Source of the DNA: an uncultured Roseiflexus sp.
Lineage (GTDB): Bacteria; Chloroflexota; Chloroflexia; Chloroflexales; Roseiflexaceae
Assembly: GCA_937935075.1 (NCBI GenBank)
Contig: CALGYB010000030.1
Coordinates: 1 to 64,000 of the forward strand
DNA: 64,000 nucleotides
Reading direction: 5' to 3'
Numbering within the stretch: position 1 is the stretch's first letter; every line of letters starts with the position of its first letter. Below are positions 39,119-61,134 of the stretch, piece after piece. Below the pieces are notes generated by a model. That model was not told the origin of the DNA. It did no database searches and worked only from the letters and a program-made list of their open reading frames with translations. The position numbers and the translations under genes are program-made.

Positions 39119-39171
39119 GAGTGCTCTCTGTGCAGTTGCTCAAAAAGGTTCCCTTATGAGGATCAACCGGA

Positions 39172-39253
39172 TATGAGACAATCTCGTGATCGGCGTTGGC
39201 TGAGCCTGTCGAAGCCAACGCCGCATGCGCAAGCGTGTTCGTCTTGGTTGAGA
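39172..39253. repeat. Dispersed repeat with a GTTGGCT...AGCCAAC hairpin, family B copy
   Basis: AGACAATCTCGTGATCGGCG, the hairpin GTTGGCTGAGCCTGTCGAAG-CCAAC (arms CGTTGGCT and AGCCAACG), then GCAAGCGTGTTCGT. The same parts in inverted order of flanks stand at 43031-43097, so these are two copies in opposite directions. Occupies the 292-base gap 39119-39410; the rest of the gap is featureless. Confidence 0.7.
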
Positions 39254-39410
39254 TTGATCTTCCTCATTAGAATCCAGACATTCGAGTCGGCGGTTCGCTG
39301 TCATCGTCAGGCGCGTCGGCGTGTTTACCGCAGCATCAGCCTGCCACGGGTTCAGCGAGGAGCAGCGGCGGCTGAAGCAACCTCCGGCATGTGGGGAGAT
39401 GGCTGCACCG

Positions 39411-43030: not shown

Positions 43031-43097
43031 ACAAACACGCTTGCACCTGTGGCTTTGGCTGAGCCTGTCGAAGCCAACGCCGATCACGAGATTGTCT
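43031..43097. repeat. Dispersed repeat, family B copy (inverted)
   Basis: ACAAACACGCTTGCACC, the TTGGCTGAGCC/TCGAAGCCAA hairpin, then GATCACGAGATTGTCT. Reverse copy of 39172-39253. Confidence 0.7.
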
Positions 43098-43099
43098 AA

Positions 43100-43169
<70 letters not shown>

Positions 43170-43274
43170 TCGATCTTCCTATGAGAAGACCCCGAAGGGC
43201 CTGGAACTTTTCCAACAGCATCGTCGTCCTAGCTCAGGATCACGGTACTGCCACGATGTCTCATACCTGTATCA

Positions 43275-43344: not shown

Positions 43345-46137
43345 ATGCGACGTCTATGGATAATGTTGACCCTCTGGACGGTGCTGCTCGCATCGTGTGG
43401 CGCGCCGCAGCCATCGGGCGGTGCGACTCCGGCGGTCCCTGGAGCGATGCCGACGAGGGGAAGCGAGTCGGTCACCATTTCATTTGCGGTATGGGAGTAC
43501 GAACGTGCTGCCTACGAACCGCTGGCGGATCGGTTTACCGCCGAAAATCCCACTATCAAGGTGGTCCTGGTATCGCTCGATGACGTAATGATGTTCGAGC
43601 CAGGCAGCGAGGGACCGACCAGTCCGCTCGATATGCTGCGGCGGATCGTGTCCGCCGCCGATACTGCTCCCGCATTCGCGCTGACGCCGGAAGCGTTTGG
43701 CACGCCGCTGCTGCTCGACCTCAAGCCGCTAATGGACGCTGACGCTACGTTTCAACGCGACGACTTCCTCCCTGGCGCCATCGAGCGCTACACGGCGAAG
43801 GGCGGGGTCTGGGCGCTGCCGCGCTACCACAGCGTCCCGTTGATTGTCTACAACCGCGCCTTGTTCCAGAACGCCAATCTGCCCGAACCGCGTCCCGGCT
43901 GGACGTGGGATGACCTGATGGCGGCCGCCGAGCGCCTGACCGAGCGCAGCGGCGTGACGACCCTCACCTATGGGTTCATGGAACCAAGCAGCGGTCTGTT
44001 ACCGCTCCTGGGGCTGCTCGATCAACAGGGGATCAATCCACTGACGGCAGCGGCAGAAGAGACGGATCTCACCGCGCCGGCGTATGTCGCGGCAGTCGAG
44101 CGCGTGCAGGAGTGGTATCGCACCGGCGTGCTGGTTGAACCGTATTTTCGCAGCGCCTCTGCTGAAGACCCCACGCGCCTGGTGCGCGAAGGGCGAGTCG
44201 CTATCTGGAGCGACTTGTCCTACATCAGCAATGACGACGGCTCGCTATGGACGCCGGACTTTCCGGTCGGTCGCGTGCCATTCCCGAAGGATGCCGTCTT
44301 CGGTCCCTTTTTCAGTTCAACCGAAGGATTCATCATCAGCGGCGGCACAGCCCACCCCGACGCCGCCTGGCGCTGGATCGAGTGGCTGACGCGCCAACCG
44401 GTTGCCGAGGATCAGCAGAGTTTCGGTCCTTTTTCTTCACGTTTGCCTGCCCGGCAGTCGGTGGCGCAGCAAACGGAGTTCTGGAGCAAACTCGATCCGC
44501 AGACCGCCGAGGCGTACCGGTGGGCGATAGAGAACAGCGGGACGCTGCCAGACACGCAGATCGATTATATGGTGATGGGCGCCCTGAGCCAGGCGGTTAG
44601 CGCATCTATCAGTGACCCGAAGGCGAATGTGCGCCAGGCGCTGGCGGAGGCGCAACGCCAGATGCAGGAGTCGCTTGCGCAGCGCGACCTGACGCCGACA
44701 CCGAAGCCGAATCTCAATCCGGTGGTGGTCGCCACGCCAGAGCCGCAGGAAGCGCCGGTCGGCGCCACGACCGTGTCGTTTGGTCTCTACGGGTATAATC
44801 CCGCTGAAGTGCGCCGCCTTGTGCGCGCCTTCCGCGATCAGCGCCCCGATATTTTTGTGCAGGTGAAACAGTTCGAATGGACGCCCGAAGTGCAGGAGGT
44901 GACTGCTGCCACGCTTGCGCAGACCAACGACTGTTTCTTCTGGTCGGGTTCGATCTCCGGCAATGATGAATCAGCCCTGCTCGATCTGCGTCCGCTGATC
45001 GAAGCAGACCCCAACTTCCCGCGTGATGATGTCTTTCCGGCGGCGCTGGCGCAGTACAGTCGCGAGGGGCGCATCTACGGGTTGCCCTATGCCGTCAATA
45101 TGCGCAGCCTGATCTACAACCATGCCGCATTTGAAGCGGCAGGCGTGCAACCGCCGCGCGCCGACTGGAAGCCGGACGATTTCCTGGCGGCGGCGCAGGC
45201 GCTGACCAGGGGAGAAGGAAGCGACCGGCGGTGGGGATATGTGCCAGTGGGATCTCCACAGTCCGATATGCTGTTCTTCATCAGTCAATTTGGCGCGCGT
45301 CTGATGATCGGTGAAGGCAAAGATCTGCGCCCGAACTACACCGATCCAAAGACCATCGCTGCCATCCGCTGGTACCTCGATCTGAGCATGGTGCACAAGG
45401 TGGCGCCGCCGGTCAAGTTCTTCTACCGGCGCGATGACTTTGGCGGCGCGGATCGTTCCTACGAGTTGGTCCAGTCCGGTCGGGTCGGGATGTGGTTTGG
45501 GTATGCCGAGTCATTCCAGGAAAGGGTCGTGATTCAACCGATCGAGCCGGGAGGCGGACCCGGACCGGCGCCGACTGCCGTTCTGCTGACGCCGGTCGAG
45601 CGCGACATTCGAGCGGCGCCGCTGCCGGTCGGTGGCGCCGGCCTGCCGTCGAGCGAAGTGTTCCTGCGTGGACTCTTCATTTCGGCGCGGGCGCAGCAAC
45701 CGCAGGCGTGCTGGGAATGGATCAAGTTTCTGTCCGGCGACTCATCCCTGATGTACGGCGACATGCCTGCCCGTCGCTCAGTCGCGCAGTCTGAGGCGTT
45801 CCTCAGCCAGGTCCCGCCGGAGCGTAGCGCGCAGTTCGAGGCGATGCGGGCAACTCTGGCGATCCCGTCGCAGAATGTCGGTGATGCTAACACTATCTAC
45901 AGCCAGTACTCCGACCCCTACTGGTTTTTCAAGGCGCTCAGCGCTGTTGTGGAGCAGGGCGCCGATCTCGAGAAGGAACTCGCCGAAGCGCAACGTTTTG
46001 CAACCGCCTTTGCCGAATGCATGAACCGCGAGAATGCTCGTGCGCCAGCATGCGCGAAAGAGGTCGATCCAGACTACAAGGGGTATAACGTCGATGAGGA
46101 AGAGCGAGGTCTTCCCCCCGCCGGTTATGCGCCATAA
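43345..46137 (+). CDS. Tandem extracellular solute-binding lipoprotein
   Basis: 930 residues. Lipobox LLASC (Cys18). Two solute-binding domains in one chain: about 45-420 (VTISFAVWEYERAAYEPLADRF ... WTRQPVAEDQ) and about 475-905 (VSFGLYGYNPAEVRRLVRAF ... SQYSDPYWFF), joined by a Pro/Thr/Gln-rich linker. Each has the family landmarks, e.g. LPRYHSVPLIVYNRALFQNA and LPYAVNMRSLIYNHAAFEAAG. Both halves end with an -ARRSVAQ- or -ARQSVAQQ- motif, showing internal duplication. No permease or ATPase is adjacent, so it may be an orphan receptor or use a distant transporter. Sugar binding is suggested by the class only. Confidence 0.88.
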   Translation: MRRLWIMLTLWTVLLASCGAPQPSGGATPAVPGAMPTRGSESVTISFAVWEYERAAYEPLADRFTAENPTIKVVLVSLDDVMMFEPGSEGPTSPLDMLRRIVSAADTAPAFALTPEAFGTPLLLDLKPLMDADATFQRDDFLPGAIERYTAKGGVWALPRYHSVPLIVYNRALFQNANLPEPRPGWTWDDLMAAAERLTERSGVTTLTYGFMEPSSGLLPLLGLLDQQGINPLTAAAEETDLTAPAYVAAVERVQEWYRTGVLVEPYFRSASAEDPTRLVREGRVAIWSDLSYISNDDGSLWTPDFPVGRVPFPKDAVFGPFFSSTEGFIISGGTAHPDAAWRWIEWLTRQPVAEDQQSFGPFSSRLPARQSVAQQTEFWSKLDPQTAEAYRWAIENSGTLPDTQIDYMVMGALSQAVSASISDPKANVRQALAEAQRQMQESLAQRDLTPTPKPNLNPVVVATPEPQEAPVGATTVSFGLYGYNPAEVRRLVRAFRDQRPDIFVQVKQFEWTPEVQEVTAATLAQTNDCFFWSGSISGNDESALLDLRPLIEADPNFPRDDVFPAALAQYSREGRIYGLPYAVNMRSLIYNHAAFEAAGVQPPRADWKPDDFLAAAQALTRGEGSDRRWGYVPVGSPQSDMLFFISQFGARLMIGEGKDLRPNYTDPKTIAAIRWYLDLSMVHKVAPPVKFFYRRDDFGGADRSYELVQSGRVGMWFGYAESFQERVVIQPIEPGGGPGPAPTAVLLTPVERDIRAAPLPVGGAGLPSSEVFLRGLFISARAQQPQACWEWIKFLSGDSSLMYGDMPARRSVAQSEAFLSQVPPERSAQFEAMRATLAIPSQNVGDANTIYSQYSDPYWFFKALSAVVEQGADLEKELAEAQRFATAFAECMNRENARAPACAKEVDPDYKGYNVDEEERGLPPAGYAP

Positions 46138-46438
46138 ACAAGGGTCCTGTCAGGGGAGCAGGCATAATGTGACATGTCGTTCGGACGGACGTGCGGGCTG
46201 AAACCCTCACTGAGGACGCGGTTCGATCGTGCTCACCGCACGTGCAAGCCCCTGCGGGGTTTGGGGAGGGCGTCAGCCCGCCCCGCGTGCGTCTGCGGTG
46301 TTGCAGCGGGGACAAGCCCGTCGGAGACGTGCGGGCTAATGAATGAAATCCGTAGAGCCTGCGCAGGCAGGCTTCGCAGCCGTAGCCCGCAGCTTCAGCC
46401 GCCGGGCGCAAAGCGAATGCTTGGGGAGCGCCTTACAC
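46138..46438. repeat. Hairpin-rich intergenic repeats downstream of the lipoprotein gene
   Basis: No gene. Contains TGCGGGCTGAAACCCTC and TGCGGGCTAATG phrases, a GCGCAGGCAGGC/GCCTGCGC hairpin and the GCTTCAGCCGCCGGGCGC segment that recurs at about 5030 and 13575. Confidence 0.55.
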
Positions 46439-46439
46439 A

Positions 46440-46570
46440 GTGATCAACCACAACCTGGACAATCAAGGACATGGAGTGGCTGATGTTGGCTGAGCCTGTC
46501 GAAGCCAACGTCGGCCGCAAGACGGTCAACACAGTCCATTATTGGGCAACATCTGGTTTGGATCGCTCTA
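46440..46570. repeat. MITE-like element, family A, degraded left end
   Basis: About 130 bases: GATCAACCACAACCTGGAC, the GTTGGCT/AGCCAAC hairpin, GACGGTCAACAC, ends GATCGCTCTA. Same order as 62480-62611; reverse of 51231-51363. The left terminus has diverged from TAGAGCGATC. Confidence 0.75.
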
Positions 46571-46716
46571 GCAGCAAGGCTTCCGCCCGCTGCCACGTTA
46601 TGCCTTAACACGCGCACCGGCGCTGAAGCAGCCTCCTGCTCCCCGAGGAGATGACGTCGCTTCGCTCGCAACGACGCCAAACGTTTGATATGGCGTTCTA
46701 TAAGGATTAATATGCT

Positions 46717-48318
46717 ATGCGATGGGTCATTCGCTGGATGAGTCTATGCTGCGTGGCGCTGCTCGCCGCCTGTGGCACGACGCAGGCGGCGCAGGAGCCG
46801 CCAACTCCCACCCCCTTGCCGCCCGACCCGGCGCTCGAACGTCCGACGTATACGGTTCAGCGCGGCGCTATCGAGCAGGTGGTTACGGTGACTGCTCGCG
46901 CGACGCCGGTTGATATGGTGCGCCTGGCATTCCGACGTGATGGGCGCGTCAACGTCGTGAATGTCAGGCGTGGCGATGTCGTCGAGGAAGGAGATGTTCT
47001 GGCGGAACTGCAACAGGATGAGGCGCTCGACGAGTTGCGTCGCGCCGAGGACGATCTGGCGCAGGCGCGGCGCGACCTCGAGAGCGCGCGGCTGGCGAAG
47101 GAGAAACGGATCAAGGAACGGGAACTCGATGTTGATCGCGCCAGGCGCGAACTCGAACGATTGCTGCCCGGCGGTGAGGCTGACCTGTTCAAGGAACTGC
47201 AAGATCGCCTGGAAACGGCGCAACGCGAATTGCGCAACACCCGCGATGACGCTTCGTGGTCGAAAACCTCGGCGGAGAAAGCGCTGATCGACAGCGCCGA
47301 GGCGCTGTCCGATACGCAGAAAGCGTACAGCACCGCCTACTGGAACTGGGATTGGGTGCAGCGCTATGGCACCGACCCGGAGAATCCGTTCATCAAAGAC
47401 GAAAATGGCGTGCTGGTCCCCAACCGGCTGACCGATAAGCAAAAGGAAGAGTATCGCGTGAAACTGACGCAGGCCGAGCGCGCCTTGCGCGATGCCGAGC
47501 GTAACCTGGAGCAGGCGCAGCGTGCCCGCGAGCGCGCATCTGAAGACGAGGTTGTCCGCATTCGCGAAGCCGAGAAAAAAGTCGCAGAAGCGCAGCGTGC
47601 GCTCGATACGTTGCTTCAGGGAAAGAACCAGGCAATCGAGGACGCCCGGCTTGCGCTTGGACGGGCGCAGGTTGCCCTGGAAGAGGCGCGTAACGAGACC
47701 CTCAATAGTGCGATCCGCGCTGTGGAGAACGCTGAACGCGCACTGGAAAAAGCGCGTCGTCGCGTTGATGATGGGCGGGTCATCGCACCGCAGGCAGGAA
47801 CCGTTCTGGCGATTGCCATCGAACCAGGGGCAAGTGTGACTGCATTCGAACCGGTTATCGAGATCGCCGATCCGTCGAACCTGGAATTTGCGGCAACGCT
47901 CAGCGCCCAGCAGATGCGGTTGCTCTCCGAAGGGCAGAGTGTCGAGATTCGCCTGCTCTCGCGCCCGGACCTGGCGATCCCTGGCGTCATTCGCCGCATG
48001 CCGGCGCCGTATGGCTCAGGCGGAAGCGGTGCGGTGCAGGATCGTGATGTCACGACGCGCTTTCAGGTTATTGATGCGCGCGGACAACAGTTCGAAGCGG
48101 GTGTAACCGTGGCGCGGGTCAGCATCGTGCTGGAACGCAAGGAAAATGTGCTCTGGCTGCCGCCCGAAGCCATCCGTTCCTTCGAGGGTCGCCGTTTCGT
48201 CATTGTGCGCGAGGGAGAGCGCGAACGCCGCGTGATGGTGCGGGTCGGCATTGAAACCGAAGAGCGGGTCGAAATTCTCGAGGGCCTGAACGAGGGCGAT
48301 ATTGTGATTGGTCCGTAG
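46717..48318 (+). CDS. Membrane-fusion adaptor lipoprotein (HlyD/MacA type)
   Basis: 533 residues. Lipobox LLAAC (Cys19), then a PT-rich tether. A barrel-sandwich/lipoyl part at about 40-95 (VQRGAIEQVVTVTARATPV), a very long coiled coil (about 95-345, heavy in Glu, Arg, Leu) with an embedded stretch WNWDWVQRYGTDPENPF, then the second half of the lipoyl domain (GRVIAPQAGTVLAIAIEPGA) and beta-barrel domain. It would link the FtsX-type permease to an outer partner or to the cell wall. Three bases separate it from the permease gene, so the two are one operon. Confidence 0.88.
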   Translation: MRWVIRWMSLCCVALLAACGTTQAAQEPPTPTPLPPDPALERPTYTVQRGAIEQVVTVTARATPVDMVRLAFRRDGRVNVVNVRRGDVVEEGDVLAELQQDEALDELRRAEDDLAQARRDLESARLAKEKRIKERELDVDRARRELERLLPGGEADLFKELQDRLETAQRELRNTRDDASWSKTSAEKALIDSAEALSDTQKAYSTAYWNWDWVQRYGTDPENPFIKDENGVLVPNRLTDKQKEEYRVKLTQAERALRDAERNLEQAQRARERASEDEVVRIREAEKKVAEAQRALDTLLQGKNQAIEDARLALGRAQVALEEARNETLNSAIRAVENAERALEKARRRVDDGRVIAPQAGTVLAIAIEPGASVTAFEPVIEIADPSNLEFAATLSAQQMRLLSEGQSVEIRLLSRPDLAIPGVIRRMPAPYGSGGSGAVQDRDVTTRFQVIDARGQQFEAGVTVARVSIVLERKENVLWLPPEAIRSFEGRRFVIVREGERERRVMVRVGIETEERVEILEGLNEGDIVIGP

Positions 48319-48320
48319 CC

Positions 48321-51167
48321 ATGCGCCTGATACTGACTTTTCTTTCTGTCCTGACGGCTGCCCTTAAGCGTCTGCGCGCCAATGTCGGTCTGGCGTTCTG
48401 TGCCTGGCTGGCGGCAGTCACTGCGGTCGCGCTCGCGGCGGCTATCCCGGCGTATGCCGAAGCAGCCAGCCTGCGCCTGTTGCAGGACGAAATCCGGCAG
48501 CAGGAGGAGCGCCTGGGACGGTCGCCGTTTGCGCTGTTGCTGCGCTATATCGGCGCATGGAACACGCCGCTGGAGTGGGAGCGCGTCGCGCCGGCGGATG
48601 ACTATCTGCAGCGCGAAGGCATACCTGGACTTGATCTGCCGACCAGCAGTTTTGCGCGCCATGCCCGCACGGCGCCGCTCCGGGTGTTCCTCGCCGCAAA
48701 TGGTGACACGATCTTCCTGAAAAATGCGCCGCTCGGCTTTATCAGCGGTCTTGACGACCGCATGCGGATCGTCGATGGGCGGATGCCGCAGGCGTCGGTG
48801 GATGGCGCCGCGCTCGACGTTGTGGTTGCCCGCGCGTTTGCCGACGAGACTGGTGTGAATGTTGGCGATACGCTCACAATCATTGCTTCCGGAACGCGCC
48901 CGGCGACGCTTCAGGCGCGTGTGGCGGCGCTCTGGGAACCGGTCAACCGCAACGATCCGGCGTGGTTCTTCCCGCCCGACACCCTTAGCGATCTCATTCT
49001 CGTGCCGGAAGCGAGTTTTACCGGTCCTGTCGCTGCGGCGCTGCGCAATGAAGTCGATCAGGCGCTCTGGTTTGTGCGGTTGAGCGGCGAAGGCGTCACC
49101 GGCGCGCAGGTGTCGCCGCTCCTGGGGCGTGTGGAAAGTGTGCGCGCGCGCGTCAATGGCATCATTCCGGGGCTGCGTCTCGAGCAGGGACCGACGGAGG
49201 CGCTGCAACGCTACCAGGAACGTGTTGCGACGCTGACCACGCAACTGTTCGTGTTCAGCGCACCGATTCTCGGATTGACGCTGTACTTTGCGGCGTTGAT
49301 CGCCGCCCTGCTCGTGCGGCGGCAGAGCAGCGAGATCGCGCTTCTGAAGTCGCGCGGCGTTCGGAGCGCCCAGATTCTCGGGATGTACCTGGTTGAGTGG
49401 TCGATCATCGGCGCCCTGGCGCTTATCGCAGGGTTGCCGCTCGGACTTGCCTTTGCATCGGTGATGAGCCGGGTGCGCTCGTTTCTCGATGTCGATCTGG
49501 CAGGCGTTGATGCGCCGCTATCGCTCGGCGCGCAGAGTCTGACGTTCGCCCTGGTCGTTCTGGCGATCACGGTGGCTGCTGCCCTGATCCCGGCGCTTGT
49601 AGCGACGCGCCGCACCCTGGTGGATGAACAGCAGCAGGCGGCGCGCGCGGTGCGCCCTCCCTTCTGGCAGCGCGCCTATCTCGATCTGCTGCTCCTGATC
49701 CCGGCAGGATACGGCGTCTACCAGTTACAGACCGGCGGCAGCCTGTTTCAAGGGAATGCAGATCCGTTCAGTAATCCGCTGCTGGTGCTGACTCCGGTGC
49801 TCCTCTGTTTTGCGCTTGGTCTGCTGGCGCTGCGGCTCATCCCGCTGATGCTGGAAGGGCTGGCGCGGCTGGCGACGATCCCGGCGTGGGTTGCGCCGCT
49901 GGTCACGTTGCGCGCGCTGGCGCGACAGACCGACAATTACCGTGGCGCGTTGCTCCTGCTGATCCTGACGCTGAGCCTGGCAACGTACAGTTCCACAATG
50001 GCGGATACGCTCGATGGAGCGATGCGCACAGAACTGACGTATCAGGCTGGCGCAATGACCCAACTCTTCGAGACGGGCGAGAGCGCCGAGCGCGCGCGCC
50101 CTGGTCAGCCCGGCAGACCGCCGCAGCAACAGCGCCGCGATATTCGGGAAGAAGCGCGCTTTCTGTTCGTGCCGGTCAGTGAGCATCTTCAGGCGCCCGG
50201 TGTGCGGGCCGCTGCACGGGTTGGGCGCTACGACGCTTTCGTCAGCGCTGGTGCGAGCAACAGACAGGCGCAGGTGATCGGGATTGATCGAACCGATTTT
50301 CCGAAGGTGATCACCCGGTTTGACCGCGCCTGGGGCGGCGGCGAGTCGCTCGGCGGATTGATGAACCTGCTGGCGCGTTACCCGAACGGCGCGCTCGTCA
50401 GCCGTGAACTGCTTGGCGATAGTCTGCGTGTCGGCGATACGCTGCCCGCTACGCTGCGGCTCTATGGCGATCAGCGTGACGTGCGTTTTCGCATTGTCGC
50501 CGCTATCGACCTCTGGCCCGGCGTCTATCCGCAGGACGGACCGATCATCGTCGCTAACCTGAATTACATCTTCGATGAAATGGGTGGACAGTACCCGTAT
50601 GATGTCTGGATCAGTCGCGATCCGATGATCCCTATCGAGGAGGTGGTTGCCGGTGTACGCAGGTTGGGTATCCCGGTCATCGATGTTCTTGATGGGGCGA
50701 CGCTCATCGCGCGCGAGCAGTCGCGTCCACAACGCCAGGGGTTGTTTGGCGTGTTGACCATCGGCTTTCTGACGGCTGGCGCGTTGACGCTGCTCGGCTT
50801 TCTGGTTGCCGGGTTCATTACCGCGCGTCGCCGGGCGATTGAATTGGGCATGCTGCGGGCGTTGGGATTGAGCGGCTTTGGAGTGGCGGCGGCGCTTTTG
50901 CTGGAACAACTGCTGCTGATTGGCGCTGGCCTGGCTGCTGGCAGCGGCATTGGCGCGCTGGCGGCAGTGCTGATCGTGCCCTTCATGCAGGTCGGTGTGG
51001 GTCCGTACCCTGGTGTTCCCGCCTACCCGCCGCGCCTGGCATGGGAAAGTATGGCGGGCATCTATGCGGCATTCGGCGTGACGCTGATGCTCTCGTTGTT
51101 GGCGCTTGGCGCCTCGCTGGCGCGCATCCGGTTGTTCCAGGCGGTGAAATTGGGGGATGTGAACTGA
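48321..51167 (+). CDS. FtsX/MacB-type ABC transporter permease
   Basis: 948 residues with an N-terminal helix, a large extracytoplasmic domain (about 60-330), a three-helix block (about 330-470), a central helical block to about 560, a second large domain and a final three-helix FtsX block (TAGALTLLGFLVAGFITARRRAIELGMLRALG). The duplicated FtsX layout is that of predicted lipoprotein or macrolide exporters and of actinobacterial-type permeases. It directly follows the adaptor gene; the double ATPase starts 482 bases later, after a repeat-filled gap. Confidence 0.88.
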   Translation: MRLILTFLSVLTAALKRLRANVGLAFCAWLAAVTAVALAAAIPAYAEAASLRLLQDEIRQQEERLGRSPFALLLRYIGAWNTPLEWERVAPADDYLQREGIPGLDLPTSSFARHARTAPLRVFLAANGDTIFLKNAPLGFISGLDDRMRIVDGRMPQASVDGAALDVVVARAFADETGVNVGDTLTIIASGTRPATLQARVAALWEPVNRNDPAWFFPPDTLSDLILVPEASFTGPVAAALRNEVDQALWFVRLSGEGVTGAQVSPLLGRVESVRARVNGIIPGLRLEQGPTEALQRYQERVATLTTQLFVFSAPILGLTLYFAALIAALLVRRQSSEIALLKSRGVRSAQILGMYLVEWSIIGALALIAGLPLGLAFASVMSRVRSFLDVDLAGVDAPLSLGAQSLTFALVVLAITVAAALIPALVATRRTLVDEQQQAARAVRPPFWQRAYLDLLLLIPAGYGVYQLQTGGSLFQGNADPFSNPLLVLTPVLLCFALGLLALRLIPLMLEGLARLATIPAWVAPLVTLRALARQTDNYRGALLLLILTLSLATYSSTMADTLDGAMRTELTYQAGAMTQLFETGESAERARPGQPGRPPQQQRRDIREEARFLFVPVSEHLQAPGVRAAARVGRYDAFVSAGASNRQAQVIGIDRTDFPKVITRFDRAWGGGESLGGLMNLLARYPNGALVSRELLGDSLRVGDTLPATLRLYGDQRDVRFRIVAAIDLWPGVYPQDGPIIVANLNYIFDEMGGQYPYDVWISRDPMIPIEEVVAGVRRLGIPVIDVLDGATLIAREQSRPQRQGLFGVLTIGFLTAGALTLLGFLVAGFITARRRAIELGMLRALGLSGFGVAAALLLEQLLLIGAGLAAGSGIGALAAVLIVPFMQVGVGPYPGVPAYPPRLAWESMAGIYAAFGVTLMLSLLALGASLARIRLFQAVKLGDVN

Positions 51168-51230
51168 GAACTGAGAACCAAGAACCAAGAACCAAGAACT
51201 GAGAACTGAGAACCAAGAACTGAGAACTGA
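51161..51230. repeat. Heptanucleotide tandem array, left part
   Basis: Ten 7-base units, GAACTGA or GAACCAA, starting inside the permease stop codon region. Two more units (51367-51380) lie beyond a 133-bp mobile element that splits the array. Confidence 0.85.
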
Positions 51231-51363
51231 TAGAGCGATCAACCAAATGATGTACAACACTTGCTTGTCTTGGCCGTCGTGCGGCTGACGTTGGCTGAGC
51301 CTGTCGAAGCCAACGTCGGTCGCTCCACGTCCTTGATTGTCCAGGTTTTAGTTGATCGCTCTA
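51231..51363. mobile_element. MITE-like element, family A, with TGA duplication
   Basis: Starts TAGAGCGATCAAC, ends GTTGATCGCTCTA (13-base terminal inverted repeats). Flanked by TGA on each side (51228-51230 and 51364-51366). Removing element plus one TGA leaves a continuous heptamer array. No coding capacity; it would need a transposase in trans. Confidence 0.85.
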
Positions 51364-51366
51364 TGA

Positions 51367-51380
51367 GAACTGAGAACTGA
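51367..51380. repeat. Heptanucleotide tandem array, right part
   Basis: Two GAACTGA units continuing the array beyond the inserted element. Confidence 0.8.
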
Positions 51381-51649
51381 TACGAATGCGCGGTTGTTTG
51401 GACAATACTGCCGGGGCGCTACGGGCTAAAGCTCTCGCTGGGCGCGTGCAAGCCCCGTTGGGGCTGCTGATGCCAAGACGTTGTAGATTATTACGCCTTG
51501 CGAACCGAGCACTCGAACATCTTGTCTGACTGACCGCAAGTTCGCATGAGAACCAAGGACCGAGAACCGGGAATATTCTCAGGGGTGCGCGAGCGGCGCG
51601 TCTGCAAGGGAAGCGGGCGAGACGCATAGGGTATGAACGTAGCGACGAT
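51381..51649. other. Remainder of the permease-ATPase gap
   Basis: Holds a copy of the GCCCCGTTGGGGC hairpin repeat (about 51400-51475) and an AGAACCAAGGACCGAGAACC run related to the heptamer array. No gene seen; a start for the ATPase lies at 51650 with only a weak upstream ribosome site. Confidence 0.5.
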
Positions 51650-53335
51650 ATGAACACGACCGATCACATTATTCACGCCAGCGGTCTGGTGAAAATCTAC
51701 AAGGTCGCCGAACTCGAGGTGGTGGCGCTCCAGGGATTGGACCTCGAAGTGGCGCGGGGCGAGTTTCTGGCGCTGGTTGGTCCTTCCGGCTCAGGCAAAT
51801 CCACGCTCCTCAGCGCCATTGGCGGCCTGGATCGCCCCTCAGCCGGGCAACTGGTCGTTGATGGTCTCGATCTGACTGCGCTGACGCCTGCTCAGGTGAG
51901 CGCCTATCGTCGTGAGCGGATCGGCTTCATCTGGCAGCAGACGACCCGCAACCTGCTACCCTATCTCAGCGCGCGCGAGAATATCGAATTGCTGATGACC
52001 TTTGCCGGGCGCAGCGGGCGTGAACGGCGCGCCTGGGCGGACGAGTTGCTGGAAGCGGTTGGCATGGCAGACAAAGCCTCGACCCCCATCACACAGTTGT
52101 CTGGCGGTCAACAGCAACGCGTTGCTATCGCCTGTGCGCTGGCGAACCGGCCACGCATCCTGCTCGGCGACGAGCCGACCGGCGAGGTGGACTGGGACAC
52201 GGCGCAGCGGGTGCTGACGCTGCTCCGCGACCTGCGGACGCGCTATGGACTGACGATCGTGCTGGTCACGCACGATCCGCGTGTGGCAGAGCAGGCAGAC
52301 CGGGTGATCGCCATTCGTGACGGTCGCACCAGCACTGAAACGCGCCGCGACGACGGCAGCGGCAACGGGGCATCGGCAGATGTTGGACGGCGCGCGCGCG
52401 CCGCCGAAGAACTCGTCGTTGTTGATCGCGCCGGGCGCTTGCAGATACCCGGTGATCAACGGGCGCTCGCGGGGATCGGGCGGCGCGCGCGCGTCGAACT
52501 CGTCGATGGCGGCGTGCTCATTCGTCCGGTAGAAGATGACCGGATCGCTATTCCAATCGAGGAGACAACCGGCGAACACCACCACCATTACCTCTACGAT
52601 GATGATACGTCCCTCGATGTCGCCGCACCGGCGTCATCCGAACCGCTCATCGACGTGCGAGGCGTCACCCGCACATTCGGCATCGGCATTCACGCGGTCC
52701 ACGCATTGCGCGGCGTCGATCTCACCGTCGAGCGGGGTGCGTTTATCGCCCTTATGGGACCAAGCGGCAGCGGTAAGACGACGCTGTTGAACATTATCGG
52801 CGGGTTGGATCGCCCGACAAGCGGCAGTGTCGTCATCGAAGGGCGCCGCGTCGATCAGATGCGTCCCGATGAACTGACCGATGTGCGGCGCCGGATCGGG
52901 TTTGTGTTTCAAAGTTTTGCGTTGCTGCCCACATCGTCGGCGTTCGAGAACGTGGAACTGGCACTGCGCCTGACCGGGCGAACGCCTCGCCGCCGGTGGG
53001 ATGCACGGGTGCGTCGCGTGCTGGCAGCGGTCGGGTTGAGTGATTGGACCGATCATCGCCCCTATGAATTGAGCGGTGGCCAGCAGCAGCGCGTTGCACT
53101 GGCGCGGGCGCTGGTCACCTACCCACGTATCATCCTGGCAGACGAACCAACCGGCGACCTCGACAGCCGCACCGGCAGGCGGGTGCTGACCATGCTGCGC
53201 ACCCTGTGCGATCAGGAAGGGGTCACGCTGATCATGGCATCGCACGATCCGGCGGTGACGGAATTCGCAACCACCATTTACCACCTGCGTGATGGCGTCA
53301 TCGTCGGGTGCGAGCAGGGGGTTACTACTCGTTAA
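51650..53335 (+). CDS. Double ABC ATPase with an AbrB-like linker domain
   Basis: 561 residues. ATPase 1: Walker A GPSGSGKS at 44-51, signature LSGGQ at 150-154, Walker B ILLGDE at 170-175. ATPase 2: Walker A GPSGSGKT at 370-377, LSGGQ at 474-478, Walker B IILADEPTGDLD from about 494. Both are of the MacB/LolD/FtsE-like class that powers FtsX-type permeases. Between them, residues about 255-298 read VVVDRAGRLQIPGDQRALAG then IGRRARVELVDGGVLIRPVED, the pattern of the SpoVT/AbrB swapped-hairpin DNA-binding domain. The linker also has a His-rich and an acidic run (EHHHHYLYDDD, about 309-319). A single polypeptide thus offers both ATP sites for the double-FtsX permease. Confidence 0.88.
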   Translation: MNTTDHIIHASGLVKIYKVAELEVVALQGLDLEVARGEFLALVGPSGSGKSTLLSAIGGLDRPSAGQLVVDGLDLTALTPAQVSAYRRERIGFIWQQTTRNLLPYLSARENIELLMTFAGRSGRERRAWADELLEAVGMADKASTPITQLSGGQQQRVAIACALANRPRILLGDEPTGEVDWDTAQRVLTLLRDLRTRYGLTIVLVTHDPRVAEQADRVIAIRDGRTSTETRRDDGSGNGASADVGRRARAAEELVVVDRAGRLQIPGDQRALAGIGRRARVELVDGGVLIRPVEDDRIAIPIEETTGEHHHHYLYDDDTSLDVAAPASSEPLIDVRGVTRTFGIGIHAVHALRGVDLTVERGAFIALMGPSGSGKTTLLNIIGGLDRPTSGSVVIEGRRVDQMRPDELTDVRRRIGFVFQSFALLPTSSAFENVELALRLTGRTPRRRWDARVRRVLAAVGLSDWTDHRPYELSGGQQQRVALARALVTYPRIILADEPTGDLDSRTGRRVLTMLRTLCDQEGVTLIMASHDPAVTEFATTIYHLRDGVIVGCEQGVTTR

Positions 53336-53378
53336 CCTTTTGTAGCCGAAACATTACACACTCCGTCCACATCACTGC

Positions 53379-53384
53379 TATACT
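53379..53384 (+). promoter_or_regulatory. Possible minus-10 of the hydrogenase operon
   Basis: TATACT, about 100 bases before hydA; the best minus-35 (TTACAC, 53354-53359) is 19 bases away. Weak evidence. Confidence 0.3.
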
Positions 53385-53486
53385 CGTGCCCACGATGTAC
53401 TTTTCTCCGTCCCGTTCTTAGTCGATTCTTCCGAACAGAATCTCGTCGTCTGGCGCAACCGGCTCTCCGATCTGAGGAGGTTGTCT

Positions 53487-54746
53487 ATGCCTGCTCGTCC
53501 TTCGTCGCTGGAGGAACGTCTTGCAGCGCGCGGCGTTTCGCGCCGTCAATTCCTCAAGTTCTGCGCTGCCATGACCGCAACGCTCGCCCTGCCCGCTACG
53601 TTTACGCCGCGTATCGCCAGGGCGCTGAACACCGCCGAACGTCTTCCGGTTGTCTGGTTGGAGTTTCAAGATTGCGCCGGCAACACCGAATCGTTCCTGC
53701 GCGCCGATTCGCCTGGCGTTGCCGACATCGTGCTGGAGCAGATCAGCCTGGAGTACCACGAAACGATCATGGCGCCGGCCGGTCATCGCGCCGAACACTC
53801 GCTCGATGCTATCGTGGAACACTATCCCGGTCAGTACATCGCTATCGTCGAAGGGTCGATCCCGACTGCCAATGGCGGAGTGTACTGCACCATCGGCGGT
53901 CGGACGGCGCTGAGCATCGCGGAGCGTGTGTGCTCGAACGCCCTGGCGACGATCGCAGTCGGCGCCTGCGCCTGGGACGGCGGCTGGCCCGCTGCCAGTC
54001 CGAACCCGACCGGCGCCGTCGGGGTGCGTCAGGCGGTGCCTGGTCTCAAGAATCTGATCAACCTGCCAGGCTGCCCGATGAATGTCATCAACCTGACAGG
54101 GGTCATTGTTCATTACCTGACGTTCAAACAACTGCCAGCAACCGACGAGCAGGGACGCCCCTTCTTCGCCTATGGGCAACTCATCCACAACAACTGCGAG
54201 CGTCGTGGTCACTTCGACTCGGGACGTTTCGTCGAGCGCTGGGGTGACGAGGGGCATCGCCTGGGATGGTGTCTGTACAAAATGGGGTGCAAAGGACCAC
54301 AGACCCTCTCGAACTGTCCGGCTGTCGGGTGGAATGGCACATCCTACTGGCCCATCGGCGCGGGGCACGGGTGCGTCGGCTGTATGTCGCCGCGCTTTTG
54401 GGATACGATGTCGCCCTTCTACGAGCGCCTGCCAAACATTGAGGGATTCGGCGTCGAAGTAACCGCTGACACCCTGGGCGCCGTTGCAGTTGGCGCAGTG
54501 GCGGCGGCTGGTGTGGTGCATGGAGTGGCAAGCGCCATTCGCGCGCGGATGCAGCCGATTGCAGCGCACGACGGCGGCGAGACGCTGGTGGAAGCGGCAG
54601 AACGCGCCGTGCAGGTGGTGGAACAGATTGCAGCACCGGTCAAAGCGGCAGAGGCGCCGGTCGAAGAGCCTGGAAAAGCGATTACGTCAGGTGGAGACGA
54701 CGCGGGTGTACGTCCCGATCGGGATGGCCCGTCTGCTCAAGGGTAG
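53487..54746 (+). CDS. hydA: [NiFe] hydrogenase small subunit with Tat signal and membrane anchor
   Basis: 419 residues from the ATG at 53487; GAGGAGG ends six bases before it, so the in-frame TTG at 53481 is rejected. Tat signal SRRQFLKF (residues 18-25). Proximal-cluster Cys in WLEFQDCAGNTESF (Cys63), VGACAWDGG and LPGCPMN; the second Cys of the usual CxxC is Asn66. Distal and medial clusters: HNNCERRGHF, GWCLYKMGCKGP, NCPAVGWN and GHGCVGCMSP. A membrane helix (about 340-365) anchors it, then a long Ala/Glu/Val tail. It carries electrons from the large subunit to the cytochrome b encoded downstream. Confidence 0.93.
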   Translation: MPARPSSLEERLAARGVSRRQFLKFCAAMTATLALPATFTPRIARALNTAERLPVVWLEFQDCAGNTESFLRADSPGVADIVLEQISLEYHETIMAPAGHRAEHSLDAIVEHYPGQYIAIVEGSIPTANGGVYCTIGGRTALSIAERVCSNALATIAVGACAWDGGWPAASPNPTGAVGVRQAVPGLKNLINLPGCPMNVINLTGVIVHYLTFKQLPATDEQGRPFFAYGQLIHNNCERRGHFDSGRFVERWGDEGHRLGWCLYKMGCKGPQTLSNCPAVGWNGTSYWPIGAGHGCVGCMSPRFWDTMSPFYERLPNIEGFGVEVTADTLGAVAVGAVAAAGVVHGVASAIRARMQPIAAHDGGETLVEAAERAVQVVEQIAAPVKAAEAPVEEPGKAITSGGDDAGVRPDRDGPSAQG

Positions 54747-54882
54747 AGGTGTGGCGCGACGGCCCTTCTGCAGACTGGTTGCGCACAACGCCGGTTTTCA
54801 AGCCCGCGGGATGGTCTCGTGCGAGCGACACTCCACACCGTCTGCGTCCTGACAGGTTGAGCAAAGCAGCGGAGGAAGCGTT

Positions 54883-56595
54883 ATGGCAAAGATCGCCATC
54901 GATCCAATTACGCGCATTGAAGGACACCTGCGTATCGAAGCGCAGATCGAGCAGGGACGGGTGGTTGATGCATGGAGCAGTTCGACAATGTTCCGCGGCA
55001 TGGAGATCGTCCTGCGCGGACGCGATCCGCGCGACGCCTGGGTGTTCGCACAGCGCATCTGCGGCGTTTGCACAACTGTCCATGCCCTCGCTTCGGTGCG
55101 CGCCGTCGAGAATGCGCTTGAGATTCAGATTCCCGATAATGCTCGCCTTATTCGCAACATCATCGCTGGCGCGCAGTACGTGCAGGACCATGTCATCCAC
55201 TTCTATCACCTGCACGCGCTGGATTGGGTAGATATCGTGAGCGCGCTCAGCGCCGATCCGGTCAAAACATCGGAACTGGCGCAGAGCATTTCCGACTGGC
55301 CTAAATCATCACCAGCCTACTTCAAAGGCGTGCAGGGGCGGTTGCAAAAGTTCGTGGACAGCGGACAACTGGGGATTTTCGGCAACGCCTACTGGGGGCA
55401 TCCGGCATATGCTCTGCCGCCTGAAGCCAACCTGATGGCGGTGGCGCACTATCTCGAGGCGCTGGAGTGGCAAAAGGACGTTATCAAGATTCACGCGATT
55501 CTCGGCGGCAAGAATCCCCATCCGCAGACATACCTCGTTGGCGGTATGGCGACGCCGCTCGATCCGAATGCGCAGCAGGCGATCAACACCATTCGCATCG
55601 CACAGTTGAAGGCGCTGGCGGAGCAGGCACGCACGTTTGTGAATCAGGTCTACATCCCTGACATCCTGGCCATCGCATCATTCTACAAAGACTGGGCGGG
55701 ACTTGGCGCGGGGGTGGGCAACTATCTGTCGTATGGCGACTTCCCCGCCGCAAAGGATGGCAATGTCGCCAGTTACTGGCTGCCGCGCGGCGTGATTGTG
55801 AACAAGAATATCGATCAGAAGCCGCTGCCCATGAACCACGAGCGTGTGACCGAGTATGTCGCGCATTCCTGGTTCCGCTACAGCGAAGGCGATCAACAGG
55901 CGCTTCACCCGTGGAAAGGCGAGACCATTCCGAACTACACCGGTCCGCAGCCGCCCTATGACTGGCTCAACACCGACAGCAAATATTCCTGGCTCAAAAC
56001 GCCGCGCTATAACGACATGCCGATGGAGGTCGGTCCGCTGGCGCGCATGCTGGTGGGATATGCTTCCGGTCAGCAGCGAATTCAGGAACTGGTGAACGCA
56101 ACGCTCGCGCAGTTGGGGGTGGGTCCAGCGGCGCTCTTCTCGACGTTGGGGCGCACGGCGGCGCGCGCCATTGAAACGGCGCTGCTCGCCGAACTGTTGC
56201 CGGAGTGGATCGATGAACTGGCGGCAAATATGGCGTCGGGCAACCTGGCGGTTCACAACAGTACGAAGTGGAGTCCGGCGAACTGGCCCAAAGAAGCCGT
56301 CGGCTGGGGATCGATGGAAGCGCCGCGCGGCTCGCTCGGGCACTGGGTGCGGATCAGGGACGGCAAGATCGTCAACTATCAGGCAGTCGTTCCGACGACG
56401 TGGAATGGTTCGCCACGCGATGCGCGTGATGTGCGTGGACCCTACGAATCTGCCCTGATTGACACGCCCATCGCCGACCCGGAGCAACCGATCGAAATCC
56501 TGCGCACCATCCATTCATTCGACCCGTGCATGGCATGCGCAGTTCACCTGGTGGATGCTCGTGGCGTTGAGATTACCCGCGTCAAGGTGCAGTGA
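54883..56595 (+). CDS. hydB: [NiFe] hydrogenase large subunit
   Basis: 570 residues with the Ni-Fe site cysteines in RICGVCTTVH (Cys60, Cys63) and DPCMACAVH (Cys549, Cys552). The final 15 residues after His555 (LVDARGVEITRVKVQ) are the extension removed by the endopeptidase encoded at 57640. It oxidises H2 in complex with HydA, carried through the Tat system together. GGAGG lies before the ATG. 136 bases separate it from hydA, with no other gene. Confidence 0.95.
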   Translation: MAKIAIDPITRIEGHLRIEAQIEQGRVVDAWSSSTMFRGMEIVLRGRDPRDAWVFAQRICGVCTTVHALASVRAVENALEIQIPDNARLIRNIIAGAQYVQDHVIHFYHLHALDWVDIVSALSADPVKTSELAQSISDWPKSSPAYFKGVQGRLQKFVDSGQLGIFGNAYWGHPAYALPPEANLMAVAHYLEALEWQKDVIKIHAILGGKNPHPQTYLVGGMATPLDPNAQQAINTIRIAQLKALAEQARTFVNQVYIPDILAIASFYKDWAGLGAGVGNYLSYGDFPAAKDGNVASYWLPRGVIVNKNIDQKPLPMNHERVTEYVAHSWFRYSEGDQQALHPWKGETIPNYTGPQPPYDWLNTDSKYSWLKTPRYNDMPMEVGPLARMLVGYASGQQRIQELVNATLAQLGVGPAALFSTLGRTAARAIETALLAELLPEWIDELAANMASGNLAVHNSTKWSPANWPKEAVGWGSMEAPRGSLGHWVRIRDGKIVNYQAVVPTTWNGSPRDARDVRGPYESALIDTPIADPEQPIEILRTIHSFDPCMACAVHLVDARGVEITRVKVQ

Positions 56596-56603
56596 GGTGT
56601 GCG

Positions 56604-57386
56604 ATGCGACGGCGAGTCTATGTGTGGGAAATCCCGGTGCGCCTGACGCATTGGGTCAATGTGGTGAGCATCGTGATGCTCTCGTTCACTGGCTACTATA
56701 TTGCCAACCCGTACATCTTCGTGAGTACGCGCGAACCATGGGGTATTTACTTCATGGGAACGATGCGGTTTCTCCACTTTGCGTTCGCCTATATCTTCGT
56801 GGCGAGCCTGCTTCTGCGCACCTACTGGGCGTTCGTCGGTAATCAATGGGCAAGCTGGCGCGGGTTGTTTCCCTTCCTGACGGCGGAAGGGCGCAAAAAC
56901 ATGTGGCATGCTATCCAGTACTACTTCTTCCTGCGCCGCAATCCGCCGGAGGTTGCCGGGCACAATGCGCTGGCAGGCACGTCGTACATGATTATCGTCT
57001 TCCTGTACGGCTTGAGTGTCTTTACCGGCTTTGCCATCTACGGTCAGTTACATCCCGCGAGCATCTGGCACACCCTCACCAACTGGGTGATGTCGCTGGT
57101 ATCGCTCCAGACATTGCGGCTCGGACATCATATCATCATGTACCTCATCCTGGCGTTTGTCGTGCACCATGTATACGCCGCATGGCTAATCGACATGGAA
57201 GAGGGCAACGGTCTGATGTCGAGCATCTTCAGCGGCTATAAGTTCCTGCCAAAGAATCAGCAGCCAGATTGGATCGAGCAGGTGATCGCCCAGAACGGCA
57301 AGCAGAACGGCAAACAGGATGGTAAAGCGCCACACGTGGCGAAGCCGGAGACGCGCGGGGTTGAGCGTGGGAAGGTTGCAGGATGA
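56604..57386 (+). CDS. hydC: Hydrogenase cytochrome b subunit
   Basis: 260 residues from ATG 56604 (GAGGTG five bases upstream). Four to five membrane helices with haem-ligand histidines in VRLTHWVNVVSIV, RFLHFAFAYIFV, LGHHIIMYL and VVHHVYAAW. It passes electrons from HydA to the quinone pool. The last about 40 residues are a polar tail (GKQNGKQDGK) that runs into DNA related to repeats downstream. Eight bases after hydB. Confidence 0.92.
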   Translation: MRRRVYVWEIPVRLTHWVNVVSIVMLSFTGYYIANPYIFVSTREPWGIYFMGTMRFLHFAFAYIFVASLLLRTYWAFVGNQWASWRGLFPFLTAEGRKNMWHAIQYYFFLRRNPPEVAGHNALAGTSYMIIVFLYGLSVFTGFAIYGQLHPASIWHTLTNWVMSLVSLQTLRLGHHIIMYLILAFVVHHVYAAWLIDMEEGNGLMSSIFSGYKFLPKNQQPDWIEQVIAQNGKQNGKQDGKAPHVAKPETRGVERGKVAG

Positions 57387-57510
57387 ACATTGAATGTGGG
57401 AAGATGGTAGGGGCGTGCCATCGGCGCGCAGGGGCGACGATGGCCGGTGAAGGGTGAACGCTTAACGTGGGAAGGTGGTAGGGGCGCGTCCGTGCGCCCG
57501 TTGTACGTTG
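57384..57510. repeat. Imperfect direct repeat after hydC
   Basis: TGAACATTGAATGTGGGAAG then GGTAGGGGCGTGCC (from 57384) recurs 71 bases later as TGAACGCTTAACGTGGGAAG then GGTAGGGGCGCGTCC (from 57455). A partial third copy overlaps the hydC end. Function unknown. Confidence 0.6.
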
Positions 57511-57526
57511 GGGGCGAGATCTGCCC

Positions 57527-57624
57527 GACCCTAGAGGTCTTCACCAGAGCTCGTCGTATACATTCGGCCCTGGTAGTTGAACGATTGTCGCCCGCTGTAC
57601 AGACGTCGCGCGACCTCAAGGGTC
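57527..57624. repeat. 98-bp interval bounded by 13-base inverted repeats
   Basis: GACCCTAGAGGTC (57527-57539) and GACCTCAAGGGTC (57612-57624); one base different from a perfect match. Same arms as 30163-30261. It sits in the hydC-hydD gap and ends 15 bases before hydD. Confidence 0.65.
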
Positions 57625-57639
57625 TTGGTGGAAAGAACG

Positions 57640-58119
57640 ATGATTATGCCAGCAATCCTGGTCCTTGGTTTGGGCAACATTATTATGTGCGACGAGGGGT
57701 TGGGCGTGCGCGCCTGTGAGCGCCTGACCCAACGCTATCGCCTGCCCGACGGTGTGATCGTGCTCGATGGCGGAACGCTAGGGCTTGATCTGTTGCCGTA
57801 CCTTGAAGGGATCACCGACCTGCTCATCATCGATGCCATCAATGCCGGCTATTCACCCGGTACGATTGTGCGGCTGGAGAATGAGCAGATACCGCAGACT
57901 CTGGCGCTCAAAATGTCGATGCATCAGGTGGGCTTGCAGGAACTCCTGGCAGTGATGGCACTGCGCGGGCATACACCGCCGCGCATCGTGTTGCTGGGTA
58001 TGGAACCGTTGCGGATCGAACCAGGGCTGGACCTTTCGGCGCCGGTGCAGGCAAACCTCGATGCGCTGGTGGAGGCGGCGGTTGCTGAACTGCGATCCTG
58101 GGGGGCTGGGTGCAGGTGA
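57640..58119 (+). CDS. hydD: Hydrogenase maturation endopeptidase
   Basis: 159 residues. HybD/HycI family: LVLGLGNIIMCDEGLGVRACERL (Glu of the nickel site in CDEG), DGGTLGLDLLPYLEG, LLIIDAINAG (Asp) and KMSMHQVGLQELLAVMALRG (His). It trims the HydB C-terminal extension after nickel insertion. A start three codons later (57646) is possible. hyp genes are not in the window. Confidence 0.92.
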   Translation: MIMPAILVLGLGNIIMCDEGLGVRACERLTQRYRLPDGVIVLDGGTLGLDLLPYLEGITDLLIIDAINAGYSPGTIVRLENEQIPQTLALKMSMHQVGLQELLAVMALRGHTPPRIVLLGMEPLRIEPGLDLSAPVQANLDALVEAAVAELRSWGAGCR

Positions 58120-58356
58120 CGGTCATCGGCGGGGCGGTTGGAGCGCCTGGGGGAGTGGGCGGCGCTGGGGTGCGTGCAGGTGCGGGGTAAGGTGGCGGCG
58201 ATGACCGTCACCGATGGGCAGCGCCGGAGGGCATGGGTGTGCGGGGTGGGGTGGCGCAGGTGACGGTCATCGGCGGGGCGGTTGGAGCGCCTGGGGGAGT
58301 GGGCGGCGCTGGGGTGCGTGCAGGTGCGGGGTAAGGTGGCGGAGATGACCGTCACC
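58115..58356. repeat. Tandem duplication of a G-rich 98-bp element
   Basis: Two copies (58115-58212 and 58259-58356), each bounded by GGTGACGGTCATC and GATGACCGTCACC, about 144 bases apart, differing at one base. The G runs (GGGGCGG, GGGGGAG, GGGCGG, GGGG) could form a quadruplex. The same terminal 13-mer is at 22426-22523. It lies upstream of the hflX promoter. Confidence 0.85.
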
Positions 58357-58372
58357 GATGGCGGGCTGCCGC

Positions 58373-58401
58373 TTGCCCCATACCACGGGGCATGCTACAA
58401 T
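58373..58401 (+). promoter_or_regulatory. Sigma70-type promoter of hflX
   Basis: TTGCCC (58373-58378), 17-base spacer, TACAAT (58396-58401), 33 bases before the ATG. Confidence 0.55.
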
Positions 58402-58434
58402 AAAGTCACGGATTGCAATTTACCTGTAAGGAGC

Positions 58435-59799
58435 ATGACGATCAGAGACGATCAGACGACTCCCAATGGCGGGCGCCGCCTCTACGAAACCCGCCCGCCC
58501 CGTGAACGCGCTTTTCTCGTCGGTGTGGAACTGACCGGTGGCCGCAGTGCATGGAAAGCCGAAGACTCGCTCCAGGAACTCGCCCTGCTGGCTGACACCG
58601 CCGGTCTTGATGTAGTTGGCAGCACGTATCAGCGCCTCAAGCAGCCCTTCCCGCGTTATTTCGTTGGTCCCGGTAAGATCGAAGAAATCGCCGCACTCCG
58701 CGACACGTTGCGCTATGATCTCGTCGTGTTCGACGATGAATTGACGCCAGCACAGGCGCGCAACATCGAAGATGCCTTGCAGACGCGCGTGCTGGACCGC
58801 ACCGTCCTGATCCTCGACATCTTCGCGCGCCATGCGCAGACCCACGAAGGGCGCGTGCAGGTCGAACTGGCGCAGTACCGCTACCTGCTCCCCCGTCTGC
58901 GACGACAATGGACGCACCTGGAGCGTCAGGCTGGCGGCGGCGGCGCTTCCGCAGGCGGCGTCGTCGGGTTGCGCGGTCCAGGCGAGACGCAGCTCGAAGT
59001 CGACCGGCGCCTGATTGCGCGCCGCATCCAGTGGCTCGAACAGCAGATCGAGGACGTGCATCGCCATCGCGAAGTCTACCGTGAACGGCGGCGTCAGAGC
59101 GGCATCCCGGTGGCGGCAATCGTCGGATACACGAACGCCGGAAAATCGACGCTGCTCAACGCCCTTTCTGGCGCTAACGTGCGCGCCGAAGACCGGTTGT
59201 TCGCTACGCTCGACCCGACAACGCGCCAGGTGGCGCTTCCCGGCGGGCAGCAGATCCTTCTTACCGACACCGTCGGGTTTATTCAGAAACTGCCAACGCA
59301 CCTGGTAGCGGCGTTCCGCGCAACCCTCGAAGAGATCCGTGAGGCGGATGTGTTGCTGCACGTGCTCGACATTACCCATCCGAACGCAGCGCAACAGACG
59401 CAGACGGTCCTCGATACACTGCACGATCTTCAGGTGGAGGATCGTCCGATCCTCACGGTGCTCAACAAGGTCGATCTCATGGTCGGCGTCGATGAATCTG
59501 AAGTGGGCAGAATTGCAGAAACGTTGGGGATGCCGGACGATTATGTGGCTGTCTCGGCGCGCAAAGGTTGGGGTCTCGATACGCTTTTGCACCGCATCGA
59601 GCGGACGCTTAGTGAGCGCATGATGCCGCTGACGGCGCTGATCCCTTACCGCCGCAACGATCTGGTGTCGCTCTGGCATACGCGCGGCGTGATTGACGAA
59701 GAACGGTACGAAGCGGAAGGGACGCTGATCGCCGGCCGTCTTCCGGTCGATCTGGTGCGCTGGTTCGAGCCGTTCTCGCACCCTGTGTTCGCTGCATAA
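58435..59799 (+). CDS. hflX: Ribosome-associated GTPase HflX
   Basis: 454 residues from ATG 58435. N-terminal HflX domain (GVVGLRGPGETQLEVDRRLI) and GTPase domain with G1 VGYTNAGKSTLL, G2 region and G3 DTVGFIQKLP, G4 LNKVDL and G5 VSARKGWG. HflX splits stalled ribosomes after heat or stress. The purine-rich ribosome site AAGGAG is only one base from the ATG, which is unusual. Coupled to the following hydrolase gene by a TAATG overlap. Confidence 0.93.
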   Translation: MTIRDDQTTPNGGRRLYETRPPRERAFLVGVELTGGRSAWKAEDSLQELALLADTAGLDVVGSTYQRLKQPFPRYFVGPGKIEEIAALRDTLRYDLVVFDDELTPAQARNIEDALQTRVLDRTVLILDIFARHAQTHEGRVQVELAQYRYLLPRLRRQWTHLERQAGGGGASAGGVVGLRGPGETQLEVDRRLIARRIQWLEQQIEDVHRHREVYRERRRQSGIPVAAIVGYTNAGKSTLLNALSGANVRAEDRLFATLDPTTRQVALPGGQQILLTDTVGFIQKLPTHLVAAFRATLEEIREADVLLHVLDITHPNAAQQTQTVLDTLHDLQVEDRPILTVLNKVDLMVGVDESEVGRIAETLGMPDDYVAVSARKGWGLDTLLHRIERTLSERMMPLTALIPYRRNDLVSLWHTRGVIDEERYEAEGTLIAGRLPVDLVRWFEPFSHPVFAA

Positions 59800-60737: not shown

Positions 60738-61111
60738 AAGTTCCAGGAGTCTACCTTGATACCTCCGTGCTGGGGGGTGCTTCGATGCCGAGTTCGCTCC
60801 CTGCTCGAACGGACTTATCAGGGATATTCGCCGCAGTTTATTTGTGCCCGTTTTGTCTGAGATTGTGACTGTCAAGGTTGCCAATGCTCCCGTAGATGTA
60901 CAAACACTGTACACGGAACTCGTGTCCGGCGCTGCTGAAGTTCTGACTGTGAACAGGAGCGCCCTTGAACTCGCAGAGGCTTATCAACAACGTGGCATCC
61001 TGACGCCGAAATTCTACAATGATGGTGTGCATAGTGCACTTGCGACGGTGGCTGACGTCGATGTGCTGGTTAGCTGGAACTTCAAGCACGTCGTTCATTA
61101 TGATAAGATAC
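60734..61111 (+). pseudogene. PIN-domain gene, frameshifted and C-terminally truncated
   Basis: Begins MKVPGVYLDTSVLGG (first catalytic Asp). At a G6 run (60772-60777) the frame is lost; with one more G the continuation reads CFDAEFAPCSNGLIRDIRRS, then VPVLSEIVTVKVANAPVDVQ, ELAEAYQQRGILTPKFYNDG and VLVSWNFKHVVHYDKIR. The family then needs about 25 more residues, which are replaced by DNA of the convergent gene end. So it has two lesions. The slippery G run could in theory allow phase-variable restoration of the first. Confidence 0.85.
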
Positions 61112-61134
61112 GCGGGTCGGGTATGTTCCCGCCT

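Follow-up and report, generated by a model that had tools for sequence, protein, structure and literature searches.

A 133-bp element that interrupts a heptamer array in a Roseiflexus contig is very probably a gene-less MITE whose movement depended on a DDE transposase that acted in trans and cut C-TNA-G targets with a 3-base stagger. The window analyzed is a stretch of 64,000 nucleotides, which is part of contig 30 of a draft genome (4.85 Mb, 220 contigs). Because a tandem array provides a built-in empty site, the borders of the element and the length of its target repeat could be read without a second strain.

Borders and target site of the element

The interrupted array adjoins an FtsX-like permease gene (48321-51167); the gene on its other side (51650-53335) encodes an ABC ATPase. 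Ten GAACTGA/GAACCAA units (51161-51230, + strand) are followed by the element (51231-51363, + strand), which we call family A and which has 13-bp perfect terminal inverted repeats (TAGAGCGATCAACC...AGTTGATCGCTCTA). A central hairpin occupies 51283-51321, with the loop core GGCTGAGCCTGTCGAAGCC at 51293-51311. The element is flanked by the two copies of the target duplication, TGA at 51228-51230 on the left and TGA at 51364-51366 on the right, and the array then continues with two GAACTGA units (51367-51380, + strand). When the element and one TGA were removed, twelve heptamers stood in register. Thus, the array-interrupting element is confirmed: the layout and coordinates given in a preliminary description of this DNA are right, and the borders that it assigned are exact, because the array returns to phase after the deletion. 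The description had also called the element a MITE, and the call is supported: the element is short and gene-less, with inverted ends, a high copy number and a target duplication.

For 16 copies that lie within or next to GAACYRA arrays, we measured the register. This genome supplied ten, and a same-genus genome, G013, supplied the other six, which are a selected sample because they came from a query that held both an array and a MITE. From 0 to 7 bases were removed after the element and the continuation of the 7-base phase was scored; L162 and L166 of G013, which have a damaged end, were left unscored, and L003, in which one end has a deletion, was used for this measurement only. Removal of 3 bases was best in 12 of the 16 copies. 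It tied with removal of 4 in L179 and was not best in L092, L210 and L163, of which L092 and L210 are poor cases. When only the array copies with identical flanks were considered, 3 bases was uniquely best in 10 of 11. Nearly all array insertions lie directly after a unit with T at position five. The exceptions are L165 (after GAACCGA) and L179 (after GAACGGG), both with unmatched flanks. The sequence CTNAG is present in GAACTGA and GAACTAA units and absent from GAACCRA units.

For the family as a whole, pairing of the ends gave 59 copies after removal of 10 chance pairs. A further 40 loci contributed 23 copies (the other 17 gave no end pair), and exclusion of one false copy (L223) left 81. 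The 3-base flanks are identical in 38 of the 81 copies, every one being TNA, and no copy has a repeat 4 or 5 bases wide. Thus, the 3-bp TNA duplication proposed previously holds family-wide. In 54 copies TNA is present on both sides, and the N is the same in 38 of these; when the pairing was shuffled, the mean agreement was 15.4 and the maximum 27. Moreover, C occupies position -4 in 69 of 82 rows and G occupies position +4 in 66 of 82 (one of the 82 rows is false). Because the flanks follow the pattern C-TNA-element-TNA-G, the target is CTNAG. The TNA target named previously is therefore correct as far as it goes but too short. The preliminary description had also stated that copies without TNA duplications would refute it. 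Taken literally, such copies exist, as 43 of the 81 have no identical pair of flanks, yet in the first paired set 57 of 59 copies keep TNA on one side or both, and the missing identical pairs read as decay. It should be mentioned that identical flanks are not linked to lower divergence (medians of 0.108 with and 0.098 without identical flanks in 43 copies; p = 0.40), so that divergence lends no independent support to decay.

Family size, central hairpin and other repeats

When the ends AGAGCGATCAACC were searched for with at most one mismatch, 84 + 83 matches were obtained in this genome versus 0 + 2 for the reversed control pattern. Therefore, the family is not a product of chance. BLAST gave at least 60 matches in this genome, with both strands counted (40 were scored of 285 first-look candidates). 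A sequence-only profile was built from 30 aligned copies, and 150 candidates per genome were scored. With fragments included, about 160 matches were found in this genome, about 153 in G013, 41 in G011 and 23 in G012. G009 (one contig) and G010 gave no match. By this search, family A is present in three of five other same-genus genomes. Of 82 genomes from the order, most of them draft assemblies, four contained the exact 14-base end; all four belong to one genus, and the control gave none.

The paired copies are mostly 114-136 bp in length, and longer ones reach about 270 bp. Six copies (L047, L051, L052, L072, L090 and L098) carry internally duplicated hairpins or inserts, which bring them to 158-264 bp, and L078 is a 587-bp copy with the remnant of another element inside. 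In 43 full copies, the terminal columns (first and last 14) are 93% conserved. These copies differ from the consensus by 6.7-13.7% (median 10%), and the closest pair is 93% identical. This divergence looks like that of an old burst without recent movement.

The hairpin loop lies one way in 29 of the 43 aligned copies and the other way in 14. A tree of the 43 copies made without the hairpin columns requires 10 changes of orientation (bootstrap range, 8-10; shuffled mean, 11.9), and only 2 of the changes are forced by well supported branches. The stem covaries: 11 of 30 copies carry changes at both positions of one pair. From these alignments the loop has likely, if not provably, flipped repeatedly. 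At up to 3 mismatches, the loop core occurs five times in the window, always within these elements. A search of the open-licence literature for the letters of the hairpin core found no paper. The core may resemble the small dispersed repeats of cyanobacteria.

The second copy reported previously, at 62480-62611 (- strand), was seen with TTA at both 62477-62479 and 62612-62614. Three further relatives in the window had been missed, and their borders were placed by eye. One is a third family A copy (46436-46570, - strand) with a decayed left end and TTA/GCA flanks. The other two are related elements: that at 39157-39266 has variant ends (TGAGGATCAACC...GATCTTCCTCA) and CTTA/TTAG flanks, and that at 43008 to about 43098 has a variant left end (CAGGGAGATCAATC), its right end being lost at the start of another repeat. 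These two are members of a sister group with the ends TAGGAAGATCAAC, for which 52 matches were found in this genome at up to one mismatch and 0 in the control (L060, L022 and L101 are other examples). Hybrid elements, with one family A end and one sister group end, also exist. A second repeat family, bounded by GAGCCTATCCGAAAA and with a GGGTAGGCGAAGGCATTGCCTTCGCCTACCC hairpin at its centre, is present in the window at 1393-1476, 13359-13442, 22106-22189, 43096-43179 and 63154-63227. In addition, two 118-bp direct copies (58100-58217 and 58244-58361) are 95% alike, with a start-to-start distance of 144 bp. An Rfam scan of positions 45000-64000 gave no match.

Heptamer arrays as landing sites

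We found 664 matches to the array pattern in this genome versus 46 in the control. By an automated test, 8 of the 81 copies touch an array (L092 and L210 among them being weak cases), compared with 54 of 20,000 random positions in the window. A rough expectation was calculated from the 664 array matches, a share of T-bearing units put at about one half on inspection of 100 rows by eye, and the CTNAG density in the estimated intergenic part of the window (27 in 9.0 kb). This rough estimate predicts about 12-16 array-touching copies if only intergenic sites are used, and about 3-4 if all sites are used. Because every GAACTGA and every GAACTAA unit includes a CTNAG and the arrays are intergenic, no special attraction to arrays is needed; the counts are about those predicted by the choice of CTNAG, and the density of targets is roughly sufficient to account for the array insertions. 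A target motif within a tandem unit means that an array can be a natural safe harbour for transposons. A broader scenario, which we regard as improbable, is that GAACTGA-type arrays serve as renewable, gene-free landing pads, the CTNAG target being rebuilt by each such unit. In two lineages or more, the arrays would thereby absorb an IS5-like MITE, and the central hairpin would be an invertible module, flipped repeatedly while its stem is kept paired.

The intergene that corresponds to the interrupted array was inspected in five same-genus genomes. The whole gap was covered in G009, G012 and G013, and the part beside the permease in G010 and G011; the MITE is absent from the parts covered. Several heptamers are present at this site: GAACYRA-like units in G011 and G012; GTGAYGA in G011, G012 and G013; GGTTGAA and then GGTTCTY in G009 and G010; and an ATTCGYT-like repeat in G012. 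Thus, the period of 7 is constant and the motif varies after the FtsX-like permease gene (L142/L154, L143/L155, L145, L146/L156 and L159/L167). Across 400 kb of G009 (L230-L249), period 7 is the commonest (21 of 123 TRF rows, overlapping rows counted), and its motifs are several, unrelated and sometimes abutting (for example, L236 2475-2886). No exact CTNAG empty site was read by blastn at six named and nine same-genus loci, because the intergenes are too diverged.

Candidate transposase and known systems

In the mechanism that we propose, the inverted ends TAGAGCGATCAAC(C) would be recognized in trans by a DDE transposase. The palindrome C-TNA-G would be cut with a 3-base stagger, the element would be inserted, and repair of the gaps would generate the TNA repeats.

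We searched for an autonomous partner. No autonomous IS with the family ends was found: the four of 82 genomes that hold the ends showed short elements only at the places examined. The surroundings of the 67 exact 13-base ends in this genome (fetched for all but the end at C220) contained short elements or no second end, and 15 stretches around ends in relatives contained no autonomous element. A 1.97-kb end pair in a relative was considered as an IS but consists of two MITEs, one on either side of a 502-codon frame, which reads like a membrane transporter gene. A blastn search against plasmids and phages gave no match. In IMG/VR, six single ends were found, with no pair within the stretches and no hairpin core.

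A search for PF01609 gave eight places in this genome. The resident IS5-like DDE_Tnp_1 element has TAGAGCC ends (GAGCCTGTTATG) beside TA, and its flanks are TA/TA, not TNA, in all four copies with both ends. By eye, copies of an IS5-like element (L038-L044) contain numerous short inserted palindromes around GCTTCGAC..GCTCAGCG, as well as G/C-run palindromes within the transposase region.

Because the family A copies lie 7-14% from the consensus and no partner was found, the transposase may now be lost or rare. It was most likely a member of the IS5 superfamily and IS1031-like, an assignment in which our confidence is limited; as no autonomous partner was found, we infer it. The IS1031-type IS5 origin proposed in the preliminary description is partly supported: the TNA target and the 3-bp repeat agree with it, but our searches gave no IS that shares the ends, and the resident IS5-like element differs.

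It is possible, if rather doubtful, that the same MITE was moved by a transposase that does not belong to the IS5 superfamily and produces TNA repeats by coincidence. The absence of a partner from our searches is consistent with this, a TNA repeat by itself is not diagnostic of a protein family, and the TAGAGCG ends are unlike the published IS1031-group example, which starts with GAACC (passages of PMC12016507). However, C-TNA-G or TNA is the target reported for NuwaII and for IS1031-group elements (passages of PMC4482050 and PMC12016507).

An element that begins and ends with TA beside GAGCG might instead have GAGCG ends and a duplicated TA, with TNA as an outer preference only. The TA beside GAGCC in the resident IS5-like element would fit a TA-target transposase of this kind, Tc1/IS630-like or other. 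Tc1/IS630-like elements duplicate TA. In family A, however, the outer TNA agrees between the two sides, with the same N in 38 of 54 copies versus 15.4 when shuffled, and the array register is restored by removal of 3 outer bases. Neither observation is predicted by a TA duplication, which we consider very unlikely. Barely credible is an illusory insertion, in which the element came first and the arrays grew outward from its flanks: array turnover is fast, and orthologous intergenes carry different units, but GAACYRA units without the element are present at orthologous sites (L142/L154 and L143/L155), the heptamer phase on one side of the element carries on at the other in 12 of the 16 cases, which two-sided growth would not give, and most copies lie outside arrays yet have the same kind of flanks.

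The IS5-superfamily assignment rests on resemblance to known elements. In passages of PMC12016507, the IS1031 group of the IS5 family is described as preferring TNA, with an exclusive 3-bp repeat, and its example ISLrh has GAACC directly after its TGA. Family A shares with these the 3-bp TNA duplication, including TGA. In contrast to them, it has no transposase gene, its ends are TAGAGCG, and no IS1031-like partner was found; because the ends differ from the published example, we do not claim membership of the IS1031 group. NuwaII, of the eukaryotic PHIS superfamily that is kin to bacterial IS5, is described as using the target C-TNA-G, and in the passages concerned its empty sites are compatible with a repeat of 3 or of 5 bases (Han et al. 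2015, PMC4482050). The target of family A, with its conserved outer C and G, is the same. The host here is a bacterium, and the arrays decide for 3 bases. Reading of arrays could therefore settle cases such as that of NuwaII.

As described in parts of PMC2836001, Tourist mPing of PIF/Harbinger likewise makes a 3-bp TAA/TTA duplication with a preference that extends further out; this plant element, for which precise excision is known, differs in having a known partner. The intergenic tandem 7-mers of Beggiatoaceae and Cyanobacteria, for which TAACTGA is given in parts of PMC4679880, resemble the GAACTGA arrays, and the likeness is to the arrays only and not to the element that lands in them. 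Among titles and the opening lines of abstracts in the open-licence literature, no paper on these elements, the MITEs or heptamers of Roseiflexus or Chloroflex, was found, and neither name occurs in the main text of a review of bacterial MITEs (PMC10969869). From bacterial MITEs generally, as portrayed in that review, family A does not differ in kind: it is short and gene-less and has inverted ends, a duplication and a high copy number. Thus, it is an ordinary MITE, with its partner missing, that has a refined target, CTNAG, and unusually firm borders.
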